Shown piece after piece: positions 8,064-14,540 of a DNA stretch of 58,650 nucleotides; the stretch's first letter is position 1, and every line of letters begins with the position of its first letter. The DNA lies in contig CACVAY010000149.1 in NCBI GenBank assembly GCA_902727985.1, forward strand, positions 1 through 58,650. Reading direction: 5' to 3'. The notes below the pieces were generated by a model that worked only from the letters and a program-made list of their open reading frames with translations, was not told the origin of the DNA and did not search any database. The position numbers were made by a program, and so were the translations under genes. Origin of the DNA: an uncultured Thiotrichaceae bacterium. GTDB lineage: Bacteria; Pseudomonadota; Gammaproteobacteria; Thiotrichales; Thiotrichaceae.

Positions 8064-9209
8064 CTATTTCAAAATAACCTTAAACTCCTTCTGCTCATTA
8101 CCACGAATCACCACAAGCTGGACACTATCCTTAGGTTTCTTACGATCCATTAATAGTTTTAAATCTGTCATATTCATGATAATTCCACCATCAATACTAA
8201 CAATCTTATCCTTTGCTTTAATGCCAGCGGCAGCTGCTGCACCCTCTCCTGAAACACGTGTTATTTTCACATGATCTTCAAGTGTCTCAAGCCATACCCC
8301 CATCATGCCTTTTTTCGGTAACAAGACTTCATCTGATTGCAATATATATTCACCAATGACAGGGACATCACCTTTTTCATTTTCGGTCATTACTCGTGCA
8401 TAAGTTTCATTGGGCATTAAACGTGCAAAGTCTCTTGGGATCCCCGCATCATGACTAATATGACCAATACCAGAAAAAACCACCATTTGTGCCTCCGGGT
8501 TGGCCTGAAGGAAATCAACGGTATTACTCGCCATCGTCTCATCCCATACCCGTTGCACAGTGATAAAGCGCTCTATCTGGTCTTTAGGCAGATCATGCAT
8601 CGCAAAAACTTTATCCAACTGTTTTTTATATTCTGCTGTCGGAGGACTAATCTCTTTGGGCAGTTTCAAGCGATCTTCTTTGGACAAGCCATCCAAGCCC
8701 TTTTCACTGACTTTTCTGGTCACTTCGACAGGAGCATTCAGCGCAATAACCGGTAGTTGATTAGCACGCGCATAATTCATAATGGGGCGGTATAATCGGT
8801 AGTCGAACTTCCAGCGTTCATAGTATTCAGTTCGACGTAACATCTCGGTTTCATCAATTTTACCTAAGACAAAATCATCCAATACCCCCTGAAAGCCTTG
8901 TTGAAACCATTCAACACCAATGCCTATTTTGGGGTTTCTGGCATGCATTTCTTTTAAGATAGTCAACTGAGTAAGATGATGATCCATTCGGGTGTGTTGC
9001 TCACCAACAAATACCACACGACGCTTCGCCAGATCCTTAATCATATCGGTGTAACCGATCTTTTCACCACTGCCGCTCTTAATTTGTTTAATTGTGTCAC
9101 TATGTGTCGCTAACACAGGTTCCTTTTCAACGGCGGCATAGCCAATCGTCAGCAATAAAACTGTCAAAAACCCACCTGCCGATAACATCAATGTCTGTGA
9201 AAATTTCAT
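8064..9209 (-). CDS. ChaN-like haem-binding domain protein fused to PDZ
   Basis: A 381-residue exported protein. Residues 1-25 form a hydrophobic signal or anchor. The central part is a ChaN/DUF399 domain (Tiki-like fold) with VVFVGEQHTRMDHHLTQL near residue 50, GIGVEWFQQGFQ, the YERWKFDYRLYRPIMNYAR helix and VVFSGIGHISHDAGIPR. ChaN proteins have been linked to haem binding and iron uptake. The last 85 residues form a PDZ domain with EGAAAAAGIKAKDKIVSIDG, which suggests peptide binding or partner recruitment. It is divergent from the M1-type peptidase gene, and a regulatory region of about 145 bases is shared. Domain calls are confident; the biological role is not established by the sequence. 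Confidence 0.8.
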   Translation of the reverse strand: MKFSQTLMLSAGGFLTVLLLTIGYAAVEKEPVLATHSDTIKQIKSGSGEKIGYTDMIKDLAKRRVVFVGEQHTRMDHHLTQLTILKEMHARNPKIGIGVEWFQQGFQGVLDDFVLGKIDETEMLRRTEYYERWKFDYRLYRPIMNYARANQLPVIALNAPVEVTRKVSEKGLDGLSKEDRLKLPKEISPPTAEYKKQLDKVFAMHDLPKDQIERFITVQRVWDETMASNTVDFLQANPEAQMVVFSGIGHISHDAGIPRDFARLMPNETYARVMTENEKGDVPVIGEYILQSDEVLLPKKGMMGVWLETLEDHVKITRVSGEGAAAAAGIKAKDKIVSIDGGIIMNMTDLKLLMDRKKPKDSVQLVVIRGNEQKEFKVILK

Positions 9210-9355
9210 GGTGATTCGGATCTCAAATAATAGAAGTTATAATATCTTTATAAAAAATTGTTCTGATTTACAAATTTATCAAAGTCATGCAGATTTACAC
9301 ACTTATAATAATTGTACGTCAAATCGGACTCAACCACAGTGACACTGAAAATAAT

Positions 9356-11365
9356 ATGCCTATATCCAAAGCACCGTTCATACATTTATTCGTCTGGGTT
9401 TTCTGCCTGGTATCTGGCTACGCCTTTGCTCAAACAAATGTCATTCATCATGAACTGACCATAACCCCAGAAATATCAGAAGGGAAGCTCACCGTTGATG
9501 ACAAAATCACAATTCCCGATCAACTCACCTCTCATCACTTTGATTTTGCGCTCAACAAAAACTTCAGCGTTCATTACCAGGGAAAACCACTAACACCCTA
9601 TCGTAAAACGCGTTCTCATACGCACTATCGCGTTCGCATGGCACCAGAACAAAAACAAATAGCACTGAACTACTCTGGCGATATTCCCTCAACCCCACAA
9701 TGCCAATGGACTAGGGAAACCTGCTCCCTACTCAATAAAGACGGTATTTTCCTAGGCCCGGGTTTAGCTTGGTATCCCATTCATCATAGCGGTTTGCAGA
9801 CCTTCAACTTACATGTTGCTTTGCCTGAAAAATGGCGCAGTCTTTCGCAAGGCATGGAAACCTCACCCAATCATTGGCAAGCCGATAAACCACAAGATGC
9901 CATCTATCTGCTGGCGGGTAAATTCCATGTTTATGAAAAACCCGGCAAGACCGCCAAAGCCATGGTGTACTTACTCTCGGACGATGAAGCACTTGCTCAG
10001 AAATATCTAAATGCTACCGAACAATACCTCAGTAGCTACTCGGAGCAATTAGGCGCATACCCGTATGGAAAATTTGCCACTGTCGAAAGCTTCTGGGAAA
10101 GTGGTTGGGGCATGCCCTCGTTTACCTTGCTCGGTTCACGAGTATTGCGTCTGCCCTTTATACTCTATACCTCGTTCCCACATGAAATTTTGCATAACTG
10201 GTGGGGCAATGGCGTGTATATCGATTCTGCACAAGGCAACTGGTCAGAAGGGCTTACAGCTTATCTAGCAGACCATGCTCTCAAAGAACAACGAGGCAAA
10301 GGCGCAGAATATCGTCGTGATGCCTTACAAAAATACGCAACCTTCGCCAAGCAGGATAACGACTTTCCCATCAGCGAATTCCGTTCCCGTCATAACAATG
10401 TCACGCAAGCTGTTGGTTACAGTAAATTGCTGATGGTGTATCACATGATTCGTAAAGACATGGGCGACGAGGCTTTCTTTCAAGGCTTGCAAAACTTCTT
10501 CAAACAATACCAATTTCAATACGCCACCATGAATGAGTTATTGGCAACGCTCTCGCAAGTGGCCAAAAAGGATTTGCTCTCAGAATATGCGCAATGGCTC
10601 ACGCAAACCGATGCGCCGACTCTTAGTATCAACACTTGGAAACAGATTGATAAAAATGAAATCGAGCTAAACTTGGCGCAACGATCCTCGCAATCGCCTT
10701 TCAAACTCTCCGTGCCTGTGCATTTCTATCAGGACGATGCCTTGTTAGAAACTCAGCAATTGAAATTAGACAAGGCAGAACAAGGCTACACGCTCACATT
10801 CCCAAAGAACACAACACGCCTAGCCATTGACCCTGAGTTTGATGTGCTTCGCAAACCTTCCGCACAAGAAATTCCTGCATCCTTGCATCGCTTTCGTGAT
10901 CGCACCGCAAAAGCCATTAGCATTACGCCAAATGCTGAGAATAAGGATATGTGGAAAAAACTGGGGGAAGAACTTACGCGCAATAATAAACGATACTATT
11001 CGCTAAAAGAAGGCCAAACAGCAGATACAGAACATGTCATTTTCCAACTCGGTTTAGCAACAAACGCTACAGCTAAACACGGCAAACTCCAGATCACAGA
11101 AACAGAGTACCAACTCGGAGACCAAAACTACGCTCGTAATAAACATAGCCTGATTTTCATAGATCATAAACCCGAACACGCTGCCAACATCGCCATCGAA
11201 GCCCCTGATGAGCAACAAGCCAGAACACTCTTTCGCAAAGCAGTTCACTATGGAAAATACAGTTATCTCATATTCGATGAAAACGGTAAAAATGTCGCAA
11301 AAGGACAGTGGGACATCAGTAATAGCCCTCTACAAATCAACCTGAAAACAGGAGCCGTGGACTAG
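9356..11365 (+). CDS. M1-like (gluzincin) exported metallopeptidase
   Basis: A 669-residue exported protein with a signal peptide (IHLFVWVFCLVSGYAFA). An N-terminal beta domain is followed by a gluzincin catalytic domain. The zinc motif HEILH begins at residue 276 and the third ligand glutamate lies in WSEGLTAYL, with 17 residues between, one fewer than classical M1 enzymes. It probably trims peptides in the periplasm. The frame opens at 9287, but the ATG at 9356 gives a clean signal peptide. The gene is divergent from the ChaN-PDZ gene. Its last codons (Gly-Ala-Val-Asp-stop) lie inside a REP palindrome, so the natural C-terminus may have been replaced by insertion of the REP sequence. Confidence 0.8.
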   Translation: MPISKAPFIHLFVWVFCLVSGYAFAQTNVIHHELTITPEISEGKLTVDDKITIPDQLTSHHFDFALNKNFSVHYQGKPLTPYRKTRSHTHYRVRMAPEQKQIALNYSGDIPSTPQCQWTRETCSLLNKDGIFLGPGLAWYPIHHSGLQTFNLHVALPEKWRSLSQGMETSPNHWQADKPQDAIYLLAGKFHVYEKPGKTAKAMVYLLSDDEALAQKYLNATEQYLSSYSEQLGAYPYGKFATVESFWESGWGMPSFTLLGSRVLRLPFILYTSFPHEILHNWWGNGVYIDSAQGNWSEGLTAYLADHALKEQRGKGAEYRRDALQKYATFAKQDNDFPISEFRSRHNNVTQAVGYSKLLMVYHMIRKDMGDEAFFQGLQNFFKQYQFQYATMNELLATLSQVAKKDLLSEYAQWLTQTDAPTLSINTWKQIDKNEIELNLAQRSSQSPFKLSVPVHFYQDDALLETQQLKLDKAEQGYTLTFPKNTTRLAIDPEFDVLRKPSAQEIPASLHRFRDRTAKAISITPNAENKDMWKKLGEELTRNNKRYYSLKEGQTADTEHVIFQLGLATNATAKHGKLQITETEYQLGDQNYARNKHSLIFIDHKPEHAANIAIEAPDEQQARTLFRKAVHYGKYSYLIFDENGKNVAKGQWDISNSPLQINLKTGAVD

Positions 11366-11372
11366 TCCACGG
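11350..11372 (+). repeat. REP palindrome, left pair, forward copy
   Basis: The head AGGAG leads into a perfect 18-bp palindrome, CCGTGGACTAGTCCACGG (11355-11372). It contains the stop codon (TAG) of the upstream peptidase. The same head-plus-palindrome design occurs in three further copies around the RAYT gene. Confidence 0.8.
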
Positions 11373-11445
11373 ATAAAACCTCTAAATGTTCATAATAAAG
11401 CCTGACACTTTTATAGCAATCAACCATATAACTACTAGAAATTTT

Positions 11446-11467
11446 CGCAGACAAGTCTGCGATTCCT
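11446..11467 (-). repeat. REP palindrome, left pair, inverted copy
   Basis: CGCAGAC-AA-GTCTGCG (11446-11461) is followed by ATTCCT. On the minus strand this reads AGGAAT and then the palindrome, so it is an inverted copy relative to the one at 11350. It ends three bases before the ATG of the RAYT gene and could affect its translation. Confidence 0.8.
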
Positions 11468-11470
11468 GCT

Positions 11471-12007
11471 ATGAACATATCTCGACATGTCAATCACCCC
11501 ACACACATCTACATAGATAATACTAACTACTTCATAAGCGCGGCCATTTTCGAACACAAAAAGCTCTTAAGCGATAATCTCAAATCATTGCTTGTAAAAT
11601 TATTTCATGAGGTATTTGCAGAATATGAATGGTCTTTAGATGCATGGGTGGTTTTAGATAATCACTATCACCTTTTGTGCAAAAGCAAACGGGGTAAAGA
11701 TATGAGCCGTATTATTGCCAAAATCCATAACCAATCAGCACAAGCCATCAAAGCAGAGCATTCTATAAATACAAAAGTTTGGGCTAATTATTGGGATTAT
11801 TGCCTGCGCAACGATAAGGAGTACCACGTTCGATTATGCTATTTGCTCAATAACCCGTATAAACACGGCTATGTCAGCGATTTACATGATTGGGAATGGT
11901 CAAGCTTTCATAAATACTACGAAGACTTGGGAGGCAAACAGCTTCGTAAACAATTCCATGAGCATTCTGATTACAGAAATTTAGACTTAGAAGGAACGGT
12001 AGACTAA
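11471..12007 (+). CDS. REP-associated tyrosine transposase (RAYT)
   Basis: A 178-residue Y1/HUH transposase of the RAYT group, related to IS200/IS605 TnpA. The metal-binding HUH motif is H65-Y66-H67 in LDNHYHLL. The candidate catalytic tyrosine is Y124 in RLCYLLNNPYKHG, a block typical of RAYTs (Y-hydrophobic-x-N-P), followed by WEWSSF (141-146). RAYTs are usually single-copy domesticated transposases that act on REP palindromes. Here a REP pair lies on each side, which strongly supports the call. Its own last codons (Gly-Thr-Val-Asp-stop) are inside the first right-hand REP. The start ATG at 11471 has no evident ribosome-binding site because the REP hairpin occupies that position, so expression may be low or structure-controlled. 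Confidence 0.9.
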   Translation: MNISRHVNHPTHIYIDNTNYFISAAIFEHKKLLSDNLKSLLVKLFHEVFAEYEWSLDAWVVLDNHYHLLCKSKRGKDMSRIIAKIHNQSAQAIKAEHSINTKVWANYWDYCLRNDKEYHVRLCYLLNNPYKHGYVSDLHDWEWSSFHKYYEDLGGKQLRKQFHEHSDYRNLDLEGTVD

Positions 12008-12014
12008 TCTACGG
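11992..12014 (+). repeat. REP palindrome, right pair, forward copy
   Basis: The head AGGAACG is followed by GTAGA-CTAA-TCTAC and CGG, matching the design of the 11350 copy (AGGAGCCG, then GTGGACTAGTCCAC and CGG). The stop codon TAA of the RAYT gene is inside it, at the same position as the TAG in the left copy. Confidence 0.8.
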
Positions 12015-12034
12015 AATCATCGTCACTGATTCTT

Positions 12035-12056
12035 CGCAGCTCAAGCTGCGGCTCCT
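12035..12056 (-). repeat. REP palindrome, right pair, inverted copy
   Basis: CGCAGCT-CA-AGCTGCG (12035-12050) is followed by GCTCCT. On the minus strand it reads AGGAGC and then the palindrome, the mirror arrangement of the left pair. It ends four bases before the ATG of the cupin gene. Confidence 0.8.
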
Positions 12057-12060
12057 AATT

Positions 12061-12393
12061 ATGAATAATATTTTCACCAGCATCCCAGATAATTTACCTG
12101 CTGAGCTATTCGAAACATTAGCTTCATCAGAAACGATAAAAATCGAACGCATCGTTTCCCGTGGACATATAACACCTGAAGGCGAATGGTACGATCAGGA
12201 GTGGCATGAGTGGGTGGTATTACTTGAAGGTGAGGCTCGATTGGATTTTGCTGATCAGGATGAGGAGTTGTTAGTTAGCCAAGGTGATTATGTCCTGATT
12301 CCTGCACATCAGAAGCACCGTGTTGTTTTTACTTCCAAGAATGAAGATACGATTTGGTTAGCGGTGCATTTTAAGGGTGAAATCACGTCTTAG
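12061..12393 (+). CDS. small cupin-domain protein
   Basis: A 110-residue single-domain cupin. The first metal-site motif is degenerate or incomplete (EWHEWVVLLEGEARL, about 55-69), and the second is GDYVLIPAHQKHRV (about 83-96) with the usual glycine and histidines. Small cupins of this kind bind a metal and small ligands; the substrate is unknown. The start lies four bases downstream of a REP hairpin with no visible Shine-Dalgarno sequence. It is convergent with the zinc protease gene. Family assignment is fairly sure, function is not. Confidence 0.75.
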   Translation: MNNIFTSIPDNLPAELFETLASSETIKIERIVSRGHITPEGEWYDQEWHEWVVLLEGEARLDFADQDEELLVSQGDYVLIPAHQKHRVVFTSKNEDTIWLAVHFKGEITS

Positions 12394-12406
12394 TGTTAGC
12401 TAAGGA

Positions 12407-13087
12407 CTAGCGACGTAATAAAGAAATCCAACGCCATACGTTGAGCAAACTAGTGAGTGATGCTGCCACATAGGTTAATGCCGCCGCTTTTAGGATACTT
12501 TCCACCGCTTGATGATCCTCTTCATGGATATAGCCTGTTTTGAGAATAGGCAATGCTTTACCAAAACTGGCATCCCATTCAACAGGCAGCGTGACTAAAT
12601 GCACCAAGGTCGCTCCTGCAATACTCACAAATCCACCGAGCATAAATAATAAACCCACGACTGGACTGCGAGAAACCACAGCCATAACGGGCATCGCTAT
12701 CATCAAGGCTGAACCTAATTTCTCGGATTTTTGCGCAATTCTAACAAGCTTACTGCGTAACAATAATTTACTTTCTTTACGTTGGTGTTGAATAGCATGC
12801 CCCACTTCATGGGCTGCAACCGCTACTGCTGTTAGTGAATTATCCCGATAGTTATTCGGCGATAAACGAACCACTCTTTCATCGGGGTCATAATGATCGC
12901 CTTGCTCTGTTTCTTCGACGGGCACATCTTGCATATCGTATTTATCAAGCAGATGACGCGCGAGCTCACCTCCCGTTCCAGGGATATGTGATTGTTTATG
13001 CGCATGCTTTTTGAAGGTGCGTTTCGCCCACCATTGTGGCCCATATACCACGACTAGAAACAATACGATGATAAGAATAATATGCAT
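12407..13087 (-). CDS. YugP-type membrane zinc metallopeptidase
   Basis: A 226-residue membrane protein of the neutral zinc metallopeptidase group (YugP-like). It has an N-terminal membrane anchor (IILIIVLFLVVVYG) and a middle part with LARHLLDKYDMQDVPVEE. The zinc-binding AVAAHEVGHAIQHQ motif (HEVGH) is followed by two or three more membrane segments (LMIAMPVMAVVS, GLLFMLGGFVSIAGATLV). An arginine/tryptophan-rich tail (VWRWISLLRR) closes the protein. The family is common in bacteria, and its physiological substrate is poorly known. It stands alone, convergent with the cupin gene and upstream of the NTF2-like gene in the same direction, with about 80 bases between. Confidence 0.85.
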   Translation of the reverse strand: MHIILIIVLFLVVVYGPQWWAKRTFKKHAHKQSHIPGTGGELARHLLDKYDMQDVPVEETEQGDHYDPDERVVRLSPNNYRDNSLTAVAVAAHEVGHAIQHQRKESKLLLRSKLVRIAQKSEKLGSALMIAMPVMAVVSRSPVVGLLFMLGGFVSIAGATLVHLVTLPVEWDASFGKALPILKTGYIHEEDHQAVESILKAAALTYVAASLTSLLNVWRWISLLRR

Positions 13088-13165
13088 ACGTGGAGCTTAC
13101 GCTTTCGTCTATTGCGATAACAGTATCATGAGTAAATATACGTTTATCTAATCAAGGAGTTTTCC

Positions 13166-13600
13166 CTAGGTTGATGCCATTTTACTTTTGAGAAAGCGCG
13201 CAGCAGAGCCAATCAGCGGCAATGATTCGTAAATAGACTCCGCCGGATCCCAGTAATCAATATGCTCTATGGCTAAGCCATTGTCATCAAACATCACCTT
13301 GCTACTACCTTGCCACTCAAAGGCTTGTCCACGTTTGGTTTTAAAGGAGAAATCCCAAACCAAGAGCAATACATCCTCTTCAGTGCTTTCGGTTTGCGCT
13401 GCATGCCGGACAACAAATTGTGGGTTCATTGTGGTTTCAAACATATGTTCAAAAATGTTCTGAATTTTTTGCGAACCAATCACGTCATTGAAGGGGTCTT
13501 TGAATCTCGCATCTACAGCAAAGAGTTCAGGAATCTTTGATAAGTGTTCTGCTTTTAGTTGTACGAAGTAGGCAATATAGTCTTTATGGTGTGGTTTCAT
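13166..13600 (-). CDS. NTF2-like (SnoaL-type) protein
   Basis: A 144-residue single-domain protein of the nuclear transport factor 2-like superfamily. It shows an N-terminal helix (YIAYFVQLKAEHLSKIPELF), the typical ARFKDPFNDVIG strand-turn, VWDFSFKTKRG and a final EHIDYWDPAESIYE strand. Members may be isomerases, ligand binders or structural proteins; here the function is unknown. The ATG at 13600 (MKPHHKDY) is preferred to a TTG four codons earlier. Neighbours give no pathway clue. Confidence 0.75.
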   Translation of the reverse strand: MKPHHKDYIAYFVQLKAEHLSKIPELFAVDARFKDPFNDVIGSQKIQNIFEHMFETTMNPQFVVRHAAQTESTEEDVLLLVWDFSFKTKRGQAFEWQGSSKVMFDDNGLAIEHIDYWDPAESIYESLPLIGSAARFLKSKMAST

Positions 13601-13829
13601 AATGGGTATCAAACAGATAAGAATAACGTAATAATGGTAGTTTCTATATACAGCGAAAACATGCTTTAGCTGTTCAATTGTAGTTTGCTTTCAGTAATCA
13701 CGCTATTAAGCGCTCATTACTTGTTGCTTACATCTTTATAAAGCTTATTGATCACTAAAGGTATTTATTCGCTTTTTGCTAATAACTGCTAAACTCTGCG
13801 CCATTATTCAATAAAAACATGGAATCCTC

Positions 13830-14540
13830 ATGAAGAAATCCTATCTCGCGGTAAGCCTTATTGCGGCACTTTCACTCTCAGCTTGTAACGATGATGGTGG
13901 AACTAGCTCAGCTGATACAAAACTCGAAACTACAGTACAAAAAGTCAGCTACGGCATTGCTCACAACTTTACTTCCAATATCAAAGAAGAAGGTTTGAAC
14001 CTAGATATGGCGGCTTTCCAGAAAGGGATCGATGATGGCAAAGCAAGCAAGCCATCTGCCATTACGGATGAAGAATTAATGGAAGCTATGCAAGCTTTTG
14101 AAGCAGAATTAAAAAAGAAAGACGAAGCTCTTGAGGCAAAAGCTTCAGCTGAAAACATGACGGCTGGTGCAAACTACCTTGCTGAGCATGCTAAAAAAGA
14201 AGGCGTGAAAGTAACCGAGTCTGGCATTCAGTACAAAGTGCTTACCGCATCAGGTTCTGGCAAAAAGCCTACAGCAACCGATACCGTTGAAGTCCACTAT
14301 CGCGGCACATTAATCAGCGGCAAAGAGTTTGATAGCTCATACTCTCGTAACAAACCCACCTCATTCCCTGTTAATCAGGTCATTCCTGGTTGGACTGAAA
14401 TGCTGCAACTCATGGATGTGGGCGATAAAGTTGAAGTGGTTATCCCCTCTGACAAAGCGTACGGCAAACAAGGCGCAGGGGCAGATATCGGCCCGAATGA
14501 GACATTGATTTTTGAAATCGAGCTTCTTGCTATCAAATAA
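13830..14540 (+). CDS. FKBP-type peptidyl-prolyl isomerase lipoprotein
   Basis: A 236-residue FkpA/Mip-type isomerase that helps fold periplasmic or outer-membrane proteins. A lipoprotein signal (SLIAALSLSAC, lipid on Cys19) is followed by a dimerisation domain with the long helix rich in EAMQAFEAELKKKDEALEAK. The FKBP catalytic domain runs from about residue 140 to the end, with VEVHYRGTLISGKEFDSSY, QVIPGWTEMLQLM, VVIPSDKAYG and NETLIFEIELL. The start is the ATG at 13830, after an AATCCTC-type region with only a weak ribosome-binding site. It is convergent with the LysR gene, and a strong hairpin follows its stop. Confidence 0.92.
   Translation: MKKSYLAVSLIAALSLSACNDDGGTSSADTKLETTVQKVSYGIAHNFTSNIKEEGLNLDMAAFQKGIDDGKASKPSAITDEELMEAMQAFEAELKKKDEALEAKASAENMTAGANYLAEHAKKEGVKVTESGIQYKVLTASGSGKKPTATDTVEVHYRGTLISGKEFDSSYSRNKPTSFPVNQVIPGWTEMLQLMDVGDKVEVVIPSDKAYGKQGAGADIGPNETLIFEIELLAIK

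Follow-up and report, generated by a model that had tools for sequence, protein, structure and literature searches.

The systems described closest to the locus analyzed here are found in PMC2817692, PMC3733652 and PMC6006769, whose lead authors we take to be Nunvar (2010), Di Nocera (2013) and Quentin (2018), respectively. In passages of the first, REP-associated tyrosine transposases (RAYTs) are located between inverted REPs with GT(A/G)G heads, often directly behind the stop codon or at a very short distance from it (Nunvar 2010, PMC2817692). Passages of the second state that the termini of GTAG REPs often give TAG stops to flanking ORFs and, in the legend of Figure 8 (5'ov/3'ov), that flanking repeats may overlap the ends of the transposase gene (Di Nocera 2013, PMC3733652). 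Passages of the third describe 2.6 and 3 TnpAY1 as lacking GT[AG]G REPs and 2.8 as possessing HYH, a proline-rich N-terminus and GT[AG]G REPs, and they cite Liang 2015 on REPs and translation (Quentin 2018, PMC6006769). Further, passages on E. coli TnpAREP report that its C-terminal tail contacts the head (G160, E161) and that its last 13 residues restrain activity (PMC8266576, 2021). The part of PMC5009743 that was covered contains no passage on REPs. As far as these passages extend, REP-supplied stop codons and REPs touching the ends of RAYT genes are already in print, and the central idea of an earlier note on our locus, namely that REPs have set the boundaries of the genes around them, is largely known. 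Judged by the same passages, the less familiar parts are a lineage of RAYTs with GGAG-headed REPs and the replacement of a RAYT tail.

A RAYT between two inverted REP pairs

The locus lies in a stretch of 58,650 nucleotides (hereafter the window; GC content 43%) from an uncultured Thiotrichaceae bacterium, the genome of which comprises 3.54 Mb in 152 contigs. A RAYT gene is placed between an M1 peptidase gene and a cupin gene, with two inverted REP pairs around it. Inspection of the sequence confirmed the earlier reading of the four palindromes as one forward/inverted pair on each side of the RAYT gene. In the features below, the covariance model E values of REPs A to D (3.3e-10 to 2.8e-7 genome-wide) hold by construction, since the model was built on nine genomic copies that included these four.

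9287..11365, + strand: M1-family metallopeptidase gene, 692 aa (PF01433, 9.5e-14, and homologues)
11350..11373, + strand: REP A, forward (sequence; covariance model match, E 3.3e-10)
11444..11467, - strand: REP B, inverted (sequence; covariance model match, E 3.2e-9)
11350..11467, no strand: left inverted REP pair, REPIN-like unit, 118 bp (sequence, pattern search, covariance model)
11471..12007, + strand: RAYT gene, 178 aa (NF047646, 93.9 bits)
11992..12015, + strand: REP C, forward (sequence; covariance model match, E 2.8e-7)
12033..12056, - strand: REP D, inverted (sequence; covariance model match, E 4.2e-9)
11992..12056, no strand: right inverted REP pair, REPIN-like unit, 65 bp (sequence, pattern search, covariance model)
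12061..12393, + strand: cupin protein gene, 110 aa, downstream neighbour (PF07883, 8.7e-10)

The window RAYT was assigned to the Y1_Tnp / REP_Tyr_transpos family (PF01797, 2.2e-9; NF047646, for which the cut-off is 80 bits). It contains HYH at residues 65-67, and Tyr 124 was assigned as the catalytic residue by alignment. HYH was present in all 35 aligned rows, and Y124 as well as N128 and P129, four and five residues after it, were invariant; the distance from the second His to the Tyr was 57 in the window, 57-59 in 34 rows and 83 in one. The AlphaFold model of the protein (mean pLDDT 92.4) had TnpAREP as its best PDB match (4er8; Foldseek E 1.1e-10). The window RAYT resembles this E. coli protein in its fold, in the HuH and Tyr motifs, in the N four residues after the Tyr and, at positions compared with 4er8, in W94 (kept in 35/35 rows) and R104 (31/35). 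In contrast, Q95 was replaced by W, Y, A, S or F in 35/35 rows, E100 by D in 34/35 and H101 by Y in 32/35, and the window lineage has a C-terminal tip of its own. Passages of Quentin 2018 (PMC6006769) list these residues for recognition of the GTAG guide and describe the part played by W94 as unclear.

Among the TnpAY1 classes of those passages, subclass 2.6 (RAYT group 5) differs from the window RAYT in the distance between HuH and Tyr (median 82 versus 57, although the published measure may differ), and class 3 differs in the Q after the Tyr, which belongs to its Y-motif signature and is absent from the window protein; the lack of GT[AG]G REPs is shared with both. By description, HYH is common to the window RAYT and subclass 2.8, but the heads in the window lineage are GGAG and not GT[AG]G. 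As in the REPtrons in passages of Nunvar 2010 (PMC2817692), inverted REPs surround the RAYT, a REP lies at or just past the stop, copies are located elsewhere in the genome and the palindromes vary by RAYT. Unlike those REPtrons, in which all heads are GT(A/G)G and more than 100 copies are usual, the window has two GGAG and two GGAA heads (the latter in REPs B and C) and the genome at least nine strong copies. By head, and by copy number as far as this lower bound extends, these REPs differ from the GTAG REP superfamily. The gene itself has the setting by which a RAYT is recognized, with inverted REPs on both sides and further copies of them at other places in the genome.

Gene ends inside the forward REPs

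The peptidase gene ends in GGA GCC GTG GAC TAG, the TAG of which (11363-11365) lies in the palindrome centre of REP A, AGGAGCCGTGGACTAGTCCACGGA, and the RAYT gene ends in GGA ACG GTA GAC TAA, the TAA of which (12005-12007) lies in the palindrome centre of REP C, AGGAACGGTAGACTAATCTACGGA. The last four peptidase residues, GAVD, and the stop codon are encoded by REP A, and the RAYT tail GTVD by REP C. It had been claimed that the forward copies hold the stop codons of the genes upstream at the same REP position, and this was confirmed for both, the frame being the same as well. A stop triplet occurs in only one forward frame of REP A and in two of REP C, which leaves few possible end points for a gene ending inside, and the shared stop position of the two genes is therefore less telling than it appears.

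We compared the C-terminus of the peptidase with those of eight M1 peptidase homologues, seven of which were aligned (30-44% identity; L019 only in the last part) and the eighth, L022, read separately. The core was common through QWxxxxxPL and was followed by unrelated tails of varying length; the window tail consists of KT and the REP-coded GAVD, which was present in 0/8 homologues. RAYT tails were analyzed in 38 of 44 loci (the short or weak matches L116-L121 were not included), and the 34 with a frame of 165-210 aa were taken as intact-length. A D-[DNS]-[FY] C-terminus was found in 29 of these 34 relatives (L078-L113), whereas the window RAYT ends in LDLEGTVD. The five exceptions were L081, L086 and L088, which form one clade and end in DED or EED, and L089 and L106. 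The RAYT of L089 keeps DDF and continues for 17 more residues into an inverted REP, where a TGA in the REP centre is the stop. These comparisons support the earlier claim that REPs supply the 3' ends of both the peptidase and the RAYT, and no homologue examined had the same C-terminal residues without a REP.

Judged from the alignments, the REP has evidently replaced the lineage's usual C-terminal tip in the window RAYT. Residues 174-178 had a pLDDT below 50 in the AlphaFold model, and the change in the tail therefore lies outside the modelled fold. The D-[DNS]-[FY] tip of the RAYTs is acidic with a terminal aromatic residue and resembles the tip of single-strand binding protein. More distant RAYTs mostly gave no clear frame and were dropped as evidence on the acidic tip.

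Among 127 REP-like elements in 38 loci, seven overlapped a stop codon, three by the REP centre and four by the head, against 9.8 expected under uniform intergenic placement (the window was left out, ORF calls were crude, a further 61 REP-like hits falling within ORFs were removed, and the near-duplicates L081/L086, L103/L104 and L090/L097 were kept as separate loci). Stop capture as a favoured outcome was rejected on this count. Further, 26 of the 127 elements were located within 15 nt of a stop, versus 15.2 expected. REPs thus favour gene ends somewhat without capturing stops beyond the placement expectation, and the near-stop excess may be a real preference for gene ends.

In the related methanotrophs L081 and L086, an upstream frame of 824/825 aa ends G-V-Q-T-stop inside the centre of the REP beside the RAYT. 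Head-type stops, TAG|GAG, were found in L082, L099 and L105 and in the C98 copy in the window's own genome. At C98 (L002, G000:C98; 1501-1524 and 1523-2959), a single REP is located between a csm5-like gene (29.3 bits, short of the 38.3 cut-off), to which the REP head gives the TAG stop, and a csx16 gene (99.8 bits, cut-off 46.35); the locus is apparently type III CRISPR. Unlike the window, the C98 copy has a stop like the terminus-type stops in passages of Di Nocera 2013 (PMC3733652). The window REPs resemble the GTAG REPs of those passages in that they overlap a gene end and supply the stop, but the stop is located in the centre of the palindrome, in a REP of the GGAG type, and not in a GTAG terminus.

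REP copies and the GGAG head

The palindromes recur in the genome, as the REP reading of the earlier note implied. A pattern search with one mismatch allowed gave 15 matches, nine of which had the REP form and were used for the covariance model. In the whole-genome covariance search, scores were obtained for 150 of 194 first-look candidates, which makes the copy counts lower bounds; at least nine strong copies were located at five sites, namely the two window pairs, a pair at C30, a pair at C129 and the single copy at C98. Outside the window, the only matches below E 1e-6 among the candidates scored were these five copies at three sites, which the pattern search had found before the covariance model, and the two methods agree. 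Three weaker full-length candidates (E 0.005 to 0.085) may be degenerate copies. In 9000-14500, Rfam yielded nothing at E <= 1.

One RAYT of the window's kind was found in the genome. A second RAYT, L016 (G000:C4; 1361-2065), is of the classical kind and is flanked by GTAG-headed palindromes (GTAGGTCGG...); two REP systems therefore coexist in this genome. The C4 RAYT is also flanked by two similar ORFs, by eye of the formylglycine-generating-enzyme (SUMF1) type. In five same-genus genomes, one of them 69% complete and two with 150 candidates scored, no match to the window REPs was obtained at E <= 0.001. When 38 related genomes (39 including the window's own) were scanned, matches at E <= 0.001 were found in four, none of the same genus; by eye, L153 and L154 are GGAG-headed palindromes and three of the match places look like chance.

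We also scanned for palindromes within 300 nt of 39 RAYTs (arm of at least 7, loop up to 4) without presupposing a head. The 142 flanking palindromes had the heads GGAG (121), GTAG (2) and GTGG (5) among others. GGAG was present in 34/39 loci, the exceptions being L086, L102, L109, L110 and L111, and a laxer detector found a GGAG palindrome in four of these five, not in L111. By name, the closest RAYT relatives come from Thiotrichaceae metagenome genomes. Among the named hosts of the lineage are Pseudomonadota, Chloroflexota, Thermodesulfobacteriota and Bacteroidota as well as candidate phyla; since many of these hosts are metagenome bins, individual placements may be wrong. Sequence comparison thus places the window RAYT, as we read it, in a multi-phylum lineage whose REPs carry a GGAG head instead of GTAG or GTGG and whose head-contact residues are changed. 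Among the REP- or RAYT-related papers listed in a search of openly available main texts, no word beginning with GGAG was found. In Desulfonema magnum (L091), seven inverted REPs form a regular 37-bp ladder upstream of the RAYT (2220-2466), and five more REPs lie within 300 nt downstream of it.

Gene starts and the origin of the arrangement

REP B ends 3 bases before the RAYT ATG (11471) and REP D 4 bases before the cupin ATG (12061), in agreement with the description of the inverted copies as ending 3-4 bases 5' of the next start codon. The accompanying claim that REPs have set these 5' boundaries found no support. Both of the nearest RAYT orthologues begin at the residue at which the window RAYT begins, and four cupin homologues align from window residue 1-3, which is an alignment position and not their own start codons. 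In the wider RAYT set, starts had been picked nearest the expected place and provide no independent start test.

It seems rather unlikely to us that the arrangement serves translation control, in which ribosomes would stall at REP hairpins on the stop codons, or be passed on to trans-translation there, and inverted REPs would limit initiation, tuning the output of the peptidase, RAYT and cupin. The REPs do lie at stops and 3-4 nt before starts. Work by Liang from 2015 is said to show that REPs stall translation of the upstream gene, and the position in the window, with the stop inside the REP, fits. REPs near stops are in excess, as described above, in 33/39 loci a REP was located upstream of the RAYT start at a distance of at most 50 nt (some REP lay within 300 nt in 38/39), and passages of Di Nocera 2013 (PMC3733652) proposed that REP hairpins lower RAYT expression. 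The window RAYT leader folds better than its shuffles do (z -2.95), and the prediction puts the AUG within a 9-bp stem that surrounds REP B; this stem, with the window RAYT start, could be a control element according to the fold. The start itself is on the closed side (unpaired 0.32 versus 0.53 in shuffles, 10% of which were as low). However, the start-proximal REPs in the 33 loci were inverted in 15, forward in 14 and two-headed in 4, with gaps of 1-50 nt, and RAYT starts in 35 loci were not more paired than shuffles (mean unpaired 0.53 versus 0.48, p 0.06, the sign being opposite to sequestration). The right (cupin) leader folded little better than chance (z -1.19). In a crude test, a Shine-Dalgarno match was absent at the first ATG in 26 of 48 window genes and at every one of the first starts, up to six per gene, in 9 of 48, cupin included; its absence at the window leader is therefore weak evidence, and a missing Shine-Dalgarno was not upheld as a special feature. 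Thus, hairpin control of translation, which the earlier note had considered, was rejected as a conserved trait after the 35 leaders had been folded; it is possible in the window but not a rule.

We also regard as unlikely that the left pair, the RAYT and the right pair arrived as one transposon-like block, with the REP ends as termini and stop capture as the insertion footprint. The RAYT and its REPs do form one block behind a divergent pair of ChaN/Tiki-PDZ and M1 peptidase genes (window 8064-11365), an arrangement that is kept in 8/8 relative loci and therefore suggests a functional pair. No RAYT match was found in these eight loci, of which about 1.5 kb past the gene was covered, and no REP copies of the window family were seen in the five same-genus genomes. 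Against this stand the single RAYT of its kind in the genome, the lack of IS-like multicopy mobility of RAYTs in passages of Nunvar 2010 (PMC2817692), and the search for an empty site or a target duplication, which found neither; there was no cupin match in the eight chaN-peptidase loci and no peptidase match in four cupin loci, so that the two genes do not adjoin each other in these relatives and no empty site was obtained. Hairpins are common at gene ends, but the probability that the palindromes are chance hairpins or terminators is negligible given the shared head and register, the at least nine strong genomic copies, the RAYT in between and the absence of a T-run after REP A.

We consider it likely that the locus is a REPtron, one RAYT between two inverted pairs of its own low-copy REP family, in which stop capture was tolerated and not selected. 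By homology with TnpAREP on GTAG REPs, the RAYT would most likely bind the single-stranded palindrome and cut near the GGAG-type head. REP A may have landed in the dispensable last codons of the peptidase gene and REP C in those of the RAYT gene, either by insertion or by a small deletion joining the gene end to the REP, and the in-frame CTAG or CTAA in the REP centre would then have served as the stop. Such captures would have been tolerated given the variable peptidase tail and the disordered RAYT tail, and selection for a boundary or a translation switch would not have been involved. By the REP C event, the window RAYT would have lost its D-[DNS]-[FY] tip. Points against this reading are the excess of REPs near stops, the predicted stem at the window RAYT start, the two GGAA heads in the window and the search for an empty site, which found none.

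A bolder proposal, which we hold to be quite improbable, is that GGAG REPs and their RAYTs form a separate recognition lineage over several phyla, in which the conserved acidic-Phe tip regulates the enzyme or docks a partner, and that a REP capturing the RAYT stop removes or masks this tip (replaced in the window, extended in L089) and alters the activity of its own transposase. If the REPtron reading favoured above is right, the GT[AG]G head of the literature passages would not be universal for RAYT-linked REPs of the proteobacterial type. The lineage would offer natural RAYT/hairpin pairs for the reading of the head, in which TnpAREP positions 95, 100 and 101 differ while 94 and mostly 104 are kept, and the RAYTs of the window and L089 would be natural experiments on the C-terminal tail.
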